Origin: Coprinopsis marcescibilis
Lineage: Eukaryota; Basidiomycota; Agaricomycetes; Agaricales; Psathyrellaceae
Length of the DNA: 64,000 nt
Assembly (NCBI GenBank): GCA_004369085.1
Contig: ML210196.1
Span: forward strand, 62,001 to 126,000
Reading direction: 5' to 3'
Position numbers and translations under genes: made by a program. The notes below the pieces were generated by a model that was given only the letters and a program-made list of their open reading frames with translations, searched no databases and was not told the origin of the DNA. Below are positions 28,756 to 35,365 of the stretch, one piece after another (position 1 is the stretch's first letter; every line of letters begins with the position of its first letter).

Positions 28756-29328
28756 AAACAACTACCAGTAGGCGTTTAAATTTACTTGCATAGCCTGAGC
28801 ATCTTGATTTCTCCCTGTTGCTCAGGATCATTTGCTTGTATAAGTTTGAGGCTCTTCACAGCTCCATTAACTATATTCACAGTCTATACACACAACCTAT
28901 GCTTGCTTTCATTGTATCTTTATGGGTATATATTTTCCCCTTGGCCCTTTCACCACATCATCAGGTTTAAGCTCAGATCTTTCACTATATTCCCGCTTGT
29001 ATCATATTGCCATTTAATGTAGACTCTATACTGTCTCTCCCGGCTCCAGTGGATTCCAGTGATATGTATGCTGCGGCTTCGCTAATCAAACTGTCAGTGC
29101 AACTGGTGCACAATAAGCGCTCATGCTCTTCAACTTTGCCACTGTGCAAAAGACATCGAAAGAGAGCATTGTTGTTGTTTATTGTTTCTCTACCACAGCG
29201 GTTCCAAGAGGCGGTCAGCAGAGTGGTTCTCCACCCGCCAGTCTGAGGGGTTTTTCATGAAGCAGTGTTCCTCCAGCCCCAGGTTGAACCGGTTTACGCG
29301 ACAGTTTGAGATTGAATCTTTCCATTGG
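28756..29328. other. Intergenic, left flank of the transposon
   Basis: No supportable gene. Ends with the left copy of the CATTGG target-site duplication. Confidence 0.5.
29323..29328. repeat. Target-site duplication, left (CATTGG)
   Basis: Six bases directly abutting the left terminal inverted repeat. An identical hexamer abuts the right repeat at 35052-35057. Confidence 0.92.
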
Positions 29329-29506
29329 TACGGTGTTCGAGAAGGACATGGTTTGTTTTCGCGCGCGAGCACCCTCCACAGCCACGAGTGGCTGTGACTT
29401 TGATGGCTGCGGCGCCTTACAGTTGATGCTCGATATTCGTTATCTTCCTGCGTCCTATGAATTAGGACACTCGATATGCAAGCAATTTGAGATACCCTAC
29501 CATATA
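29329..29506 (+). repeat. Left terminal inverted repeat, 178 bp
   Basis: Begins TACGGTGTTCGAGAAGG and ends ...CTACCATATA. Contains a perfect internal palindrome of nine-base arms, CACAGCCAC-GA-GTGGCTGTG, a possible transposase-binding site (inference). Confidence 0.93.
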
Positions 29507-29635
29507 TATAATGACTATGTATAAAGAAGACCCAAATTAAAATTGATCTACTTCACAAAATGCGATCCCCAGATGCCACTGTCCCATTGCGCGGCAGTAT
29601 ACTAGGCTACTAGTAGGAGTACTACATACTCGGGA

Positions 29636-31280
29636 CTACGCATACTCAGCCTCCTCAACCTCATCCAAACGAGAAAGATGCAAGGATACCATGTCCGTAA
29701 ATATTGCCCATCCGTTGGCTGGAACTAACTCCGGAGTCCCTATAGCCTGATACAGATCAGTGTACAGGGTAACCTCTTCCTCAGTACCAAACCGGAAGAG
29801 TGCTGGGTCGTCATACTCTGCGGAAAGCCAATCAAGATCTGTTGCAGGAACCGAAATAAGCATATTCTTCCCGCCATACTCTTCAGGAGACTCGAAAAGA
29901 TCAATCCTTCGTGCACCTGATGGCAAGAGAATCTTCTTCTGCTTTCGGATGCGGTGGTACTTGTTTTCCTCAAGAAGTGCATCCAACCGAACCTGGACTA
30001 TCTTGGCCCAGACCCAGCGAGCAAGTCCACTATAAATTTGCACCTGTGTTAGCCATATCATCTAAAATTTGGTGTCAAGGGAAGAGCTTACGCATGAAAA
30101 TCATCGTGAGGGTTGAACCCAGCGTCACCTTGGCCAATGCGATAGGTGTGAAGGATATTTGTCAAGTCCCTGGAGTAGAGTGGACGCCATGCTCGCTCTC
30201 TAGTAATGTTCTTAGTTGACTTCACAGCTGCATGAGAGGGAATTTCAGCCTCCGAAATAAATGGCTGGTACTTTGCACTAGTTTGAAATGAGTGCGTACC
30301 AAAGTGGGAATCATAATCAACTTACCGAAGAGCTCTAACCAGAGATATAAGCTTCCCAACCTCAGATCCCTTGTCACTGGTGGTGGTAAGCGGGATTCCT
30401 GGTTCAAGTTAATCAGCTCACTAGAGTACAAGAATGCAAGTAGAAGCCATCACAGTACCTCCAAGCTTTTGAGCAATTCTAAGATACACTGCCGGAGGCA
30501 GCATACTATCCCGTGCATTTGGAACTGCAATTAATGCGAGTTCCATGCGGCTGAACTTGTCGTTCACTCCGTAGATACCAATGCCCATCTGAAGTAAGAT
30601 CTTCTTGTGCCCATCGAAGCATTGCTCCTCGTTTGGGCCTGCAGATGTAAGGCCACTGGAATGAACCTTACGAGTGGCTGGGTGACGAGACTTGGCAGTA
30701 TCTGGGTTATCAAGTTGGCGATAACGCATAATAAAATCTCTGAACAATGTAAGCAGTATCAGAGATGCGAATGAGATGTACAGGGATATAAAGACACACA
30801 TACCGATTTACATGAGTCCCTTGCAAGGCAAGCTTCTCCTGAATTGACCGACACCCCCAGCGTCCAAGAGGATCATCTTCGGTGACCTTCAGAATTTCCA
30901 TCCCTTTCTCGATGTCGGACAGAGCAGACTTTCGGACTGTTTTGACATCACACTTCTTCATGATCTTCTTTATGCTTGACAAGCTAGTGTAAAGAAGCCG
31001 TCAGATAAGTAGTGAGAGCTTAAAAGAGCTGTTCCCATGCCATACCTGACTTCTACACCGAGATCTCTCAGAATTATACCGGGAATATTTTTCTGGAGTA
31101 CTCCTTTGTTAACATAGTCCTGAAGACGGTCAGGAAGATCAGGGATGTCTTCGACTGTAGCAAAGAAAGAAAGATGGCGTTTAGAAGATAGGGCTCGGGA
31201 CATAGCAAATTGACACCTACGGATTGGGCGCTTGTTCCACTGGTTATGGCCAGTGGGATTTTCACAGTGGTTCGGGCCAT
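29636..31280 (-). CDS. DDE integrase-type transposase
   Basis: Seven exons: 31280-31217, 31154-31046, 30983-30804, 30739-30459, 30398-30326, 30277-30092, 30029-29636; phases close to give an intact 428-residue protein. The N-terminal 115 residues look helical and DNA-binding, with the segment GCRSIQEKLALQGTHVNR as in IS3/integrase helix-turn-helix regions. The integrase core follows: FDGHKK (D160), ...IYGVNDKFSR, TSDKGSE (D220), then H..VKSTKNITRERAW (E263), a full D-D-E set. The C-terminal part (GLARWVWAKIVQVRLD ... ILLPSGARRIDLF ... PEEYGG) matches the integrase core family widespread in Agaricomycetes. The usual WH before the first Asp is replaced by EEQC. Expected to excise and insert this element via the TIRs. 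Confidence 0.88.
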
Positions 31281-31368
31281 GATGGTATAGAAAAGGAGGC
31301 AGAATGGGACGAGTGGGTAAGAAGATTAACTTGCTTGAGTTGTTCTGTTATTGAAAAAATATCCTCAG

Positions 31369-31375
31369 CTTTTAT
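31369..31375 (-). promoter_or_regulatory. TATA box of the transposase gene
   Basis: TATAAAA on the minus strand about 90 bp upstream of the transposase ATG at 31280. Confidence 0.65.
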
Positions 31376-31761
31376 ACTCACAATAGAGCTGGCAATGAAA
31401 CCGGTAATTTGAGAGATGTTGCAATTGCCAATGCGGCATCTTGGACCTTGGTATGCCCATGGACTCGCTAAAGAGTTGGTCCAGGGTTTGGGCATCTGCA
31501 TGCCTTCTTCTGCGTTTCAAGTAGCAAAGTCGTTGATGATATGCAGGATTATGATATTTAGACGCGCACAAGGCATCAATTTGCACAATGGACTGATGCA
31601 AAAGCAGTGCGTTTCGGCACGCCCTAACCTACCCCTGTATATATGTTATACTCAGTGCATGTTGTTCCGAGGCTTTATGATGACACATGCTGGGGTTTTG
31701 AATGCCTTGCGCACGGGAGAATAGAGGGCATGCGCTAATTTCCCGATCCCGGGGTAAGCGT

Positions 31762-31885
31762 GTCGGGACGCTGAGAACGCCTCAAGGCATAATTCCGACG
31801 CTTAGAGCACTTTATGGTATTACTGGAGCTCACTGAAAGCCTGAGACCCGCTGGGGCACAAAACAGCAAGGAGGAGCACTAACCT
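31762..31885. repeat. Internal direct repeat, copy 1
   Basis: Shares the block TCGGGACGCTGAxAAxGCCTC and, further on, CTGGGGC...CAAGGA.GAG.GCTAA with 31979-32062. Non-coding; a possible regulatory or transposase-binding repeat (inference). Confidence 0.65.
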
Positions 31886-31978
31886 CCGGATTCCAAGACC
31901 CACACAATTTGCACACAATGCGCACAAAAGAATGGAGAGGACGCTTCAATTTATGGATTCGGGAGTAGATATTAACAA

Positions 31979-32062
31979 TCGGGACGCTGAAAATGCCTCA
32001 AGGCCTAATTACAGCTCGCGAAAACTCACTGGGGCGGGAATCGGCAAGGATGAGTGCTAATT
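31979..32062. repeat. Internal direct repeat, copy 2
   Basis: Second copy of the repeat at 31762-31885, shorter because of small deletions, in the same orientation. Confidence 0.65.
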
Positions 32063-32205
32063 GTCGCAGTTGGAGACTTGCAATGAGTCACACAGAGCAT
32101 GCAGCCCGCCTGAATTTCAAAGTTGGTATCTGGAGCCGGGTTCCGGAACATGCTCACACCATGTAAGCCTCAGAGCTCTGTGTACTTAGCCACGCACAGA
32201 ATATG

Positions 32206-32211
32206 TATAAA
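32206..32211 (+). promoter_or_regulatory. TATA box of the alpha-kinase gene
   Basis: TATAAA 84 bp upstream of the alpha-kinase ATG at 32290. Confidence 0.65.
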
Positions 32212-32289
32212 GTCTACAGAGAGAATACAACAGTTTCGCACCCCCATAATCACGTTCTTCTCAATACTTCTCAAGCTTCCATCATCATC

Positions 32290-34736
32290 ATGGCTCATCG
32301 TTGCTCAGGTTGCTCGCGTGCTTTTCCCTGCCTTGAAGAAGAGCGTTGCGGCCGTTGTGCTCGCAAGCAACGTCTTCCTGAGGATGAGTGGGGCATGTGC
32401 ACAAACTGTGGAAAGGTGTATGAGTTTCTTGACCGAGATAGCTGCTTTGCCTGTGAATATTACAAGTCTGGTACGTTGTTTATTGCTGCCAGTAAGGGAA
32501 CCTTGTATCTGACTCGATAAAGCAAGTGGAGTTCAACAAGTCGCTGCTAATGCAATGGCTAATCCAGTCAACCCAAGGGCTCCAGCGAATGAGGGACAGG
32601 ACGATGTAGGTTCAATTGCGCCATGTCCCATTAGATCCAGTACTAACTGTCTGATTAGCTCCGTGAACGTGCAATGGACACTATATCGCAGATGCACTCA
32701 AGTTACTCCCGTGCCATGTCCCGTGCAGCCCCGGGAACACACCTTGCACCGTCTAAGCTTCGGACGGCCATGCCCTCTGGGGGAACTCAGCTTCGAGCAC
32801 TGCCTGCAAAAGCGAAGCGCAATATAAATGTGAAGGTATGTAAGGCCTTTTGCAATGCTTTGTCCACTTATCACTCAATGGTATCGCACAGGTGTCTAAG
32901 ATGCTGCATTGGGACAAGGGAAAGCATAGTCCAGCCTCAAGGTTCAATGTCACGAACACTACATACGATGAGGACACCCTACTCTGCGATGTATTGGCTG
33001 CTCTTCGTGGGATTGCAGACAACACCTACTCCAAGGAGTATAATCATCGTGTGTATGAAATGTGAGTGCTTATTCTGCATGATTCCTCTGTTTTGTGACT
33101 TACCGTTACTAGGGAAGAGATTGACCTCCTTTGGAGCGCCTCAAAGGCAGAGGTCGACAAGACATGGTTCGATGGAACCAAAACCTTGCGGGATCTATGG
33201 TCCAGCTGTGCCAATAACAAGCTTTACATCCCTCTTCAAGACGTGAAACGGGTTGTTGTTGACTTGCATATTCTTGTTAAGACCTTCGACCCGGATTGTC
33301 AAAACGAGAACCTGGAGACCACACTTGAGATTTCGGATGACTCTGTCCATGAGACCAAGGTGAGTCTAGCTTCCAGCTATTGTTAATCCAGTACTCACGG
33401 CTTTTGCGCTCCGAATACTAGATTGAGAACACTGGAAGGTCCAAGCGTGGTCTTAGCATTGGTGAAGGTGACCACACCCAAGAAGGCACGCAGCTACTCT
33501 TAAAAAAGCCTAGTACGTGTTCATTTTACCGATCTCAGTGGTCTACTAATGCGGTGTATGCAAGAGCTTGCTCCTGCGGGAAACAAGCTATACATGACAC
33601 GGATTCCCTCAACCGCAAATGTATCAAGCGTGTCTTATCGCGGGGTTAAGGGTCAGTGGATTGTCGAAGGGGATGGTATACCATTTTGGCTCGAAGATGA
33701 GGAGATGATGGTTGCTGCAGTCGAACGCAAGCCGTTTGAGTCTGGAGTCACGAAGCAGGCATTTAAGGTAAGTTTTGAACTCTCTACATTGGTTTTGCAT
33801 TGTAACATCGACTTAGATGCGCGCAAACAATGCTCTTTACGCTGCAAAGTGCCACTACAATGTGGGCTCCGGACCTCATGTTTCGAGCGAGGAAAATCAG
33901 CAACATCTCAAAGAAGAACTGCATCGACAGTCCGTCGTCCGTGAGGCAGTCAATCGCTTCATTGAAAATGCGAAGAGTTTAAAGGTCTCTGTATACGGTA
34001 TGTATTTATAATGTTCTTCAACTTGTTATAGGCTTTAACCGTCTGTGGGATAGATATCAAGGTTGCCGATGCATTCCTCTTTATCGTGTCAGATGGAATG
34101 CGTAAGGGCCACTCATGGCTTGTGGATCCTTTGGTTGAGGGCGGGAAATTCCGCAAATTCTCTGGCACGAACGAGGCAGGGTCCAACGGAGCGGACTTAG
34201 CTGGTAGAACCTGTGACGCCTTCGCACATTTCTCTTACTTTGACTCTCAAGGAACAGTTGTCTTTGTGGACCTGCAAGGTTGGTTTCCTTTCGTTTGCTT
34301 GCTCCGTTTACTGTTTACTGATATCTGGATGCTCAGGCATTGACTCAATGTCTCTTCCATTCTCTCAGAAGCGAACTTCATCCCACTATCTGACCCTCTA
34401 TGACACCATGATTCACAGGTACGCCGTGTGCTGTACATAATTTGGCTAAACTTGTGCATCATTGTTTCTTTCGATAGTTCTCAAGTTCTTTTCGGATTAG
34501 GAGACCAGGGTCAGCTCGGAGTCGACGAGTTTGTGTCTCAACACACCTGTAACTCGATCTGCCGAGCTTTGGGTCTTACCGACGTCACAGAAATGTCCCT
34601 CAAGTTCTCATCTGGCCCTGACCCGGATGACAAAGACAAGCAGAGTCCACCAGCATCTCGGGGCCCAAGCCGTGCATCGACTGCACCCTCTGAGCCTGAA
34701 AATTCCCCCAACTCTCTCGATAGTGTAGACATTTAG
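32290..34736 (+). CDS. Alpha-type protein kinase with N-terminal zinc-knuckle region
   Basis: Eleven exons: 32290-32470, 32523-32605, 32659-32835, 32892-33061, 33113-33359, 33422-33512, 33565-33767, 33817-33997, 34054-34278, 34337-34418, 34478-34736. All ten junctions keep phase; 632 residues, no internal stop. Residues 5-55 hold Cys pairs (RCSGCSRAFPC, CGRC, CTNC, CFAC), likely two zinc knuckles. The alpha-kinase domain spans about 317-580. It has the nucleotide-binding lysine in YAAKCHY (K395), AFAHFSYFDSQG, catalytic-loop VDLQG (D517), YDTMIH, a glycine loop FGLGDQG, and the zinc module QHTCNSICRALGL (H569, C571, C575). The C-terminus is Ser/Pro-rich. Expected to phosphorylate Ser/Thr in helical substrates. 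It lies wholly inside the transposon and is divergent to the transposase, so it travels as cargo or as a transposition factor. Confidence 0.92.
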
Positions 34737-34873
34737 GCTTGGGTATATAATTGGTGTAAGTTACGCGCCTATCTGAGATCAGACTGTCCCTCAATGCCAT
34801 CTTTGCATCCTCTTTGATTATTCTTTGGGATATTCAATTTTAATTGCATTATGCCTTATCTAGTACTCTTGCT

Positions 34874-35051
34874 TATATGGTAGGGTATCTCAAATTGCTC
34901 GCATATCGAGTGTCCTAATTCATAGGACACAGGAAGGTAACGAATATCGAGCGTCAACTGTAAGGCGCCGCAGCCATCAAAGTCACAGCCACTCGTGGCT
35001 GTGGAGGGTGCTCGCGCGTGAAAACAAACCATGTCCTTCTCGAACACCGTA
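34874..35051 (-). repeat. Right terminal inverted repeat, 178 bp
   Basis: Inverted copy of 29329-29506 with about five substitutions, the same length and the same internal palindrome. Confidence 0.93.
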
Positions 35052-35057
35052 CATTGG
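35052..35057. repeat. Target-site duplication, right (CATTGG)
   Basis: Perfect copy of the left duplication at 29323-29328. Confidence 0.92.
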
Positions 35058-35279: not shown

Positions 35280-35365
35280 GGCCGTGTGGCGAAATGGCAT
35301 CGCGTCTGACTACGACTCAGAGCATCGCGATCAGGAGATTGTAGGTTCGACCCCTACCTCGGTCA
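35280..35365 (+). tRNA. tRNA-Arg (anticodon ACG), with a 14-nt intron
   Basis: Folds as a tRNA: acceptor GGCCGTG / CTCGGTC (one U-U mismatch), D arm, anticodon stem TCTGA / TCAGG with loop CT-ACG-A, T arm GTAGG-TTCGACC-CCTAC. The intron CTCAGAGCATCGCG sits at the canonical 37/38 position. A TTTTT pol III terminator follows at 35369-35373. The second copy of this gene is at 54042-54127. The transposon ends about 230 bp upstream. Confidence 0.93.

Follow-up and report, generated by a model that had tools for sequence, protein, structure and literature searches.

The window analysed here, a stretch of 64,000 nucleotides within contig C51 of the Coprinopsis marcescibilis assembly (36.3 Mb in 448 contigs), contains a 5,723-bp DNA transposon at positions 29329 to 35051 that carries a transposase gene on the left (minus strand) and, in divergent orientation, an alpha-kinase gene on the right (plus strand; Table 1). 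Its terminal inverted repeats (TIRs) are identical at 173 of 178 positions (97% complementary in a repeat search, 97.19% over 178 bp by blastn), the termini read TACGGTG...CACCGTA with TACGGTGTTCG present at each end, and a perfect 6-bp duplication, CATTGG, lies just outside both ends. Both genes are open in models of 7 and 11 exons, built with GT-AG introns only and without transcript evidence, and TATAAA boxes lie upstream of the start codons at 31376 (minus strand, transposase) and 32206 (plus strand, kinase). The element is real and intact, and an earlier sequence-only reading of this DNA, which had described a complete transposon with 178-bp TIRs of about 97% identity, a perfect 6-bp target-site duplication and two intact divergent multi-exon genes with TATA boxes, was right on each of these points. 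Its claim of a recent insertion goes too far because TIR identity is no clock for a cut-and-paste element; the claim reaches beyond what the sequence supports, and in this one assembly the closest relative, on contig C50, shows 83% identity over 993 aligned bases. A search of the same assembly with the joined window flanks, as expected of an empty site, matched solely the two flanks themselves.

The transposase contains an rva_4 integrase core (Pfam, E value 1e-7) with the catalytic triad D160, D220 and E263 (DD42E). D, D and E are invariant in the aligned transposases, and the fold is consistent with an integrase-like DDE transposase. Among the scanned homologues, rva_4 was detected in 19 of 19, HTH_21 in 6 and rve in 5 (E values up to 0.1). 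Members of this group are found under other descriptions in databases: the C. marcescibilis protein P0022 follows the transposase sequence of a copy on contig C87, a stop-ridden gene annotated as a 351-amino-acid (aa) protein, and in one Coprinopsis cinerea strain a transposase of the window element's family is labelled "citrate synthase I" (P0006).

The kinase matches the Pfam Alpha_kinase domain with an E value of 1.5e-29 and 103.8 bits against a cut-off of 21.3. Its catalytic residues could be aligned to those of myosin heavy chain kinase A (MHCK A), and the lysine, aspartate, glutamine, glycine-rich loop and zinc histidine and cysteine positions, which we take to serve the catalytic and zinc-binding roles of alpha-kinases, are invariant in four aligned kinases (window, C384, C26 and protein P0001). 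A PF02816 score above the cut-off combined with these conserved residues places the protein in the alpha-kinase family. Residues of about 152 to 271 in P0001, located between the N-terminal cysteine module and the kinase domain, may adopt a ubiquitin-like (UFM1-type) fold, which would give an architecture of cysteine module, possible ubiquitin-like fold and alpha-kinase domain. A variant model of 636 aa ends exon 1 at 32491. Placing the first donor 21 bases upstream of this gives the 629-aa model, which by eye is in better agreement with the Coprinellus homologue. Comparison of the Coprinellus kinase with viral contigs gave no match.

By its ends, duplication, TIR length, transposase type and kinase gene, the window element is an IS3EU transposon in a two-gene form without a TET/JBP gene. 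IS3EU elements are described with TA..TA ends, usually 6-bp duplications and no HHCC motif before the catalytic core (PMC10045372), and the TET-bearing IS3EU of rusts with 6-bp duplications and TAYGG..CCRTA ends (PMC12730594). The window element has TA..TA ends in the TAYGG..CCRTA form of the fungal families, TIRs whose 178 bp agree with the more than 30 bp of IS3EU, and an integrase-like DDE transposase (rva_4, invariant D/D/E, fold); its CATTGG duplication is joined by the 6-bp duplications CAAAGG, CAACGG, ACTGTG, AACGTG and CACGAG (C111/C314) among its relatives. According to Kojima (2025; PMC12730594), in all TET-bearing IS3EU families a TET/JBP gene sits between oppositely oriented transposase and alpha-kinase genes. 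An alpha-kinase opposite the transposase is likewise present in five of five full-length copies here, and no Tet_JBP match was found at any element locus (the only one in the genome, C302:18263-18682, lies away from the elements), which excludes the TET-bearing subset and not IS3EU itself. The sequence-only reading had raised the prospect of an undescribed two-gene family: the two-gene pair is indeed recurrent, and "undescribed" was wrong, as the element belongs to IS3EU and an IS3EU with alpha-kinase is already in print (PMC12730594). In the literature searched, with most subscription papers and Repbase reports outside it, that paper alone among the matches listed places an alpha-kinase in IS3EU, in two sentences, and no functional study of an IS3EU kinase was found. 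What is added here is a two-gene form lacking TET from a genome of the Agaricales, together with the architecture of its kinase and the evidence for selection.

The test proposed in the sequence-only reading, a search for further full copies with both genes, recovered the same pair with 6- to 7-bp duplications. Ends were sought in the loci from transposase, kinase and repeat searches with a threshold of at least 22 identical positions in the 30-bp ends and no duplication required, and all five full-length TIR-bounded copies found hold the divergent transposase and kinase pair, spanning two lineages whose transposases share 25-29% identity. Eight copies have both of their flanks within a single contig, and a duplication borders every one of them, perfect in seven and at 6 of 7 bases in C26. 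In the second lineage, the duplications of three full-length copies (C26, C384 and C211) read as 7 bp against the usual 6 bp of IS3EU; this reading was made after the flanks had been seen, a 6-bp reading would be offset by one base, and the duplications may be 6 bp plus one extra base. C111/C314, a short derivative of the second lineage, reads as a 6-bp duplication. That the pair recurs refutes chance nesting or an assembly artefact, by which a transposase-only element would have captured a kinase once: with an identical gene order in 5/5 full-length copies and duplications at all eight evaluable ones, we give this explanation next to no credence, and its one point of support is that the window subfamily has few copies, with C50 and C132 as the only (partial) relatives.

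IS3EU-type transposase sequence lies at 15 loci or more (C51, C50, C87, C26, C384, C211, two on C349, C6, C34, C238, C62, C12, C33 and C314), the counts of transposase and kinase loci being lower bounds from searches that scored best candidates. Kinase sequence accompanies 12 of these 15; beyond the full-length copies the pair stands at two further loci, one with half a kinase, and the short derivatives retain pieces of both genes. The exceptions are C50; C238, a contig whose transposase match starts at base 12-15; and C34, an 88-residue transposase relic for which 9 kb showed neither a kinase nor clear ends. C111 (C111:96355-97295) was considered as a separate locus and dismissed: its flank agrees at 941/941 bases, CACGAG stands on both outer sides, and C111 most likely represents the opposite side of the insertion on C314, which leaves 15 loci instead of 16. 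The C33 flank is unlike that of C314/C111 (14/60 bases alike), and the 1,418-bp form therefore exists in at least two places; because these near-identical copies sit exactly at contig ends with unlike flanks, the sequence suggests that this derivative multiplied recently and broke the assembly. The rva_4 loci on C237, C263 and C155 were examined as kinase-free relatives and not counted as IS3EU copies, being remote and without IS3EU ends or kinase within about 1.5 kb on each side.

Of the five full-length copies, three have both genes open and two have both broken. In addition to the window element, C26 has a defect-free transposase of 7 exons and a kinase without stop or frameshift whose first methionine was not located, and C384 has a defect-free 655-aa kinase and a transposase free of defects from query residue 17. 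The transposase of C87 carries 3 stops and its kinase 3 stops and 2 frameshifts; that of C211 has 2 stops, next to a kinase with 2 stops, 1 frameshift and a damaged N-lobe region. The kinase at C349:2398-7729 has one stop. Kinase and transposase identities yield the same two lineages, with faster change in the kinase. Nonsynonymous (dN) and synonymous (dS) divergence by Nei-Gojobori was 0.049 and 0.378 for the window and C50 transposases (187 codons), 0.086 and 0.318 for the window and C132 kinases (86 codons) and 0.318 and 1.9 for the C384 and C211 kinases, several wider pairs being saturated. Fisher tests with sites split 25:75 (4e-14 for the first pair, 4e-4 for the second) point to purifying selection on both genes. 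The sequence-only reading had left it at a kinase that either helps transposition or is cargo; the same pair in the other full-length copies and its two congruent lineages make a function that serves the element more likely than chance cargo. The related idea of a host-benefiting cargo or a neutral captured host gene appears improbable to us: the divergent pair stands in both deep lineages, it decayed jointly in C87 and C211, and the transposase-free kinase loci (C279, C9, C337 and C132) are either relics or situated at the ends of contigs. This idea draws on the fact that alpha-kinases exist outside the element family, given that, of the 14 places where PF02816 matches in this genome, C54 and C11 are not recognisably like the element kinase (no alignment scoring above 70 with any of nine kinases; shuffled controls 37-47).

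Since the pair recurs, catalytic residues are invariant, purifying selection is indicated and the genes are open or broken together, the kinase appears to be a core gene and regular part of the IS3EU elements in this genome rather than chance cargo. We consider it likely that the window element is an autonomous IS3EU cut-and-paste element whose working set comprises the DDE transposase and an alpha-kinase acting for the element by promoting its transposition or expression. The transposase would cut and join the inverted repeats, creating the 6-bp duplication, while the N-terminal modules of the kinase may bring it to the element or to protein partners; there its target could be the transposase complex or else a chromatin or repair factor of the host, whose phosphorylation would promote transposition or expression. 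The kinase would thus most likely be a regulator that helps the element to move or to escape silencing. Several observations weigh against this view. C50 has a transposase and no visible kinase, but a gap of 1,466 N lies at the site. On C6, a long transposase match stands beside kinase residues 20-203, the N-terminal half, with the catalytic half missing, unreadable or too diverged, and the kinase may therefore not be needed at each copy. The 1,418-bp derivative, present in two places, moved with neither of its genes intact, presumably through help in trans, and kinases without adjoining transposase occur on C279, C9 and C337 (near a contig end) as well as on C132 (at the contig start, with an inverted repeat). 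Purifying selection, moreover, does not separate a benefit to the element from one to the host.

A narrower proposal is that the kinase acts as an anti-silencing factor, phosphorylating host chromatin or methylation machinery and never touching the transposase, in analogy to what has been proposed for TET/JBP in other IS3EU. TET-bearing IS3EU retain the kinase beside a TET/JBP gene whose presumed role is to counter methylation (PMC12730594), and contacts to partners in chromatin could be made by the cysteine module and the possible ubiquitin-like fold; the elements here are nevertheless without a TET gene and nothing links the kinase directly to chromatin. We regard this proposal as rather unlikely; it falls within the view that the kinase acts for the element and is inseparable from that view by sequence. 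Of similarly tentative standing is the broader suggestion that IS3EU is a superfamily controlled by its own alpha-kinase, which would be aimed by the zinc-ribbon-like and ubiquitin-like modules, with transposition or derepression needing phosphorylation.

Table 1. Features of the window element (window positions) and its TIR-bounded copies elsewhere in the genome (contig:positions).
Feature	Position	Strand	Length	Duplication	Basis or remark
Left target-site duplication	29323..29328			CATTGG	sequence
Left TIR, begins TACGGTGTTCG	29329..29506	+	178 bp		repeat search, blastn
Palindrome CACAGCCACGAGTGGCTGTG in left TIR, candidate binding site	29377..29396		20 bp		same in C50 and C132
Transposase gene, 7 exons, rva_4 at residues 151-329	29636..31280	-	428 aa		spliced model, Pfam
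Transposase exons	31217-31280, 31046-31154, 30804-30983, 30459-30739, 30326-30398, 30092-30277, 29636-30029	-
Start-codon-to-start-codon region	31281..32289		1,009 bp		one TATAAA per gene, no TET/JBP domain
Alpha-kinase gene, 11 exons	32290..34736	+	about 629 aa		spliced model, Pfam
Kinase exons	32290-32470, 32532-32605, 32659-32835, 32892-33061, 33113-33359, 33422-33512, 33565-33767, 33817-33997, 34054-34278, 34337-34418, 34478-34736	+
N-terminal cysteine module (CSGC, CGRC, CTNCG, CFAC), zinc-ribbon-like	32302..32463	+			alignment
Alpha-kinase domain PF02816, residues 380-579 of 636-aa model	33741..34562	+			exons 7-11
Right TIR	34874..35051	-	178 bp		repeat search, blastn
Right target-site duplication	35052..35057			CATTGG	sequence
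Full-length copy	C87:41558-46946		5,389 bp	CAAAGG
Full-length copy	C26:168015-174323		6,309 bp	CTCTGTC/CTCTGTT	6/7 bases
Full-length copy	C384:2274-7983		5,710 bp	CCATGTA	7/7
Full-length copy	C211:12453-18102		5,650 bp	CCCACGG	7/7
Short derivative	C62		1,257 bp	CAACGG
Short derivative	C12		954 bp	ACTGTG
Short derivative	C349:13751-15507		1,757 bp	AACGTG	repeat search
Derivative at contig ends	C33:1-1418, C314:23602-25019		1,418 bp		1,414/1,418 bases alike

Each TIR of the window element contains the palindrome CACAGCCACGAGTGGCTGTG (29377-29396 and 34984-35003), which is unchanged in C50 and C132 despite TIRs that are just 79-84% alike. Shuffled TIRs yielded any palindrome of this kind in 14 of 1,000 cases, and none was present in the other eight elements examined. 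A tRNA-Arg gene lies at 35280-35365, starting about 230 bp to the right of the element, and no close tRNA neighbour was seen at the other copies. Targeting of tRNA genes as a rule was rejected, as 22 of 24 stretches around copies are without tRNA; the exceptions are the window stretch and that of C111, whose two tRNA-Ile genes are more than 3 kb from the C111 copy.

It is unusual for a DNA transposase to have a protein kinase as its standing partner, and an element in which both genes are intact, and which has close relatives, allows the role of the kinase to be tested directly. What is counted as alpha-kinases in the genomes of mushrooms and rusts may in large part be transposons. The family was called "highly expanded in the rusts" in an anther smut paper (PMC4469406), and PF02816 appears in the domain table of a wheat-rust study (PMC5295586); if IS3EU is controlled by a kinase of its own, much of this basidiomycete and rust "expansion" would consist of transposon genes and not host signalling. 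A cross-species search that scored the 7,995 candidates with the greatest word overlap found at least 11 related kinases, all from Agaricales, and both proteins are listed for Cyathus striatus and four other species. In C. striatus, transposase P0013 and kinase P0037 agree in the length of their longest contig (44,881 bp), which suggests that they lie on one contig; in the four other species these lengths differ between the two proteins.

Among the closest known systems are the TET-bearing IS3EU of rusts and Tuber (PMC12730594), with 6-bp duplications, TAYGG..CCRTA ends and opposed transposase and alpha-kinase genes as shared features; the elements described here differ from them in the absence of a TET/JBP gene, the Agaricales host and the 7-bp reading in three copies of one lineage. 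GingerRoot, which groups with IS3EU, resembles the element in its integrase-like DDE transposase, 6-bp duplications and mostly TA..TA ends, and IS481EU likewise has an integrase-like DDE transposase but duplications of 4, 15 or 25 bp; the word "kinase" does not occur in the main text of the paper on both (PMC10045372). IstA, TnsB and retroviral integrases share the catalytic-domain fold only, with 7-17% identity in the listed rows. MHCK A and ChaK (TRPM7) have the fold and conserved residues in common with the element kinase, which is unlike them in being encoded by a transposon and in its additional parts, the zinc-ribbon-like cysteine module and the possible ubiquitin-like fold.

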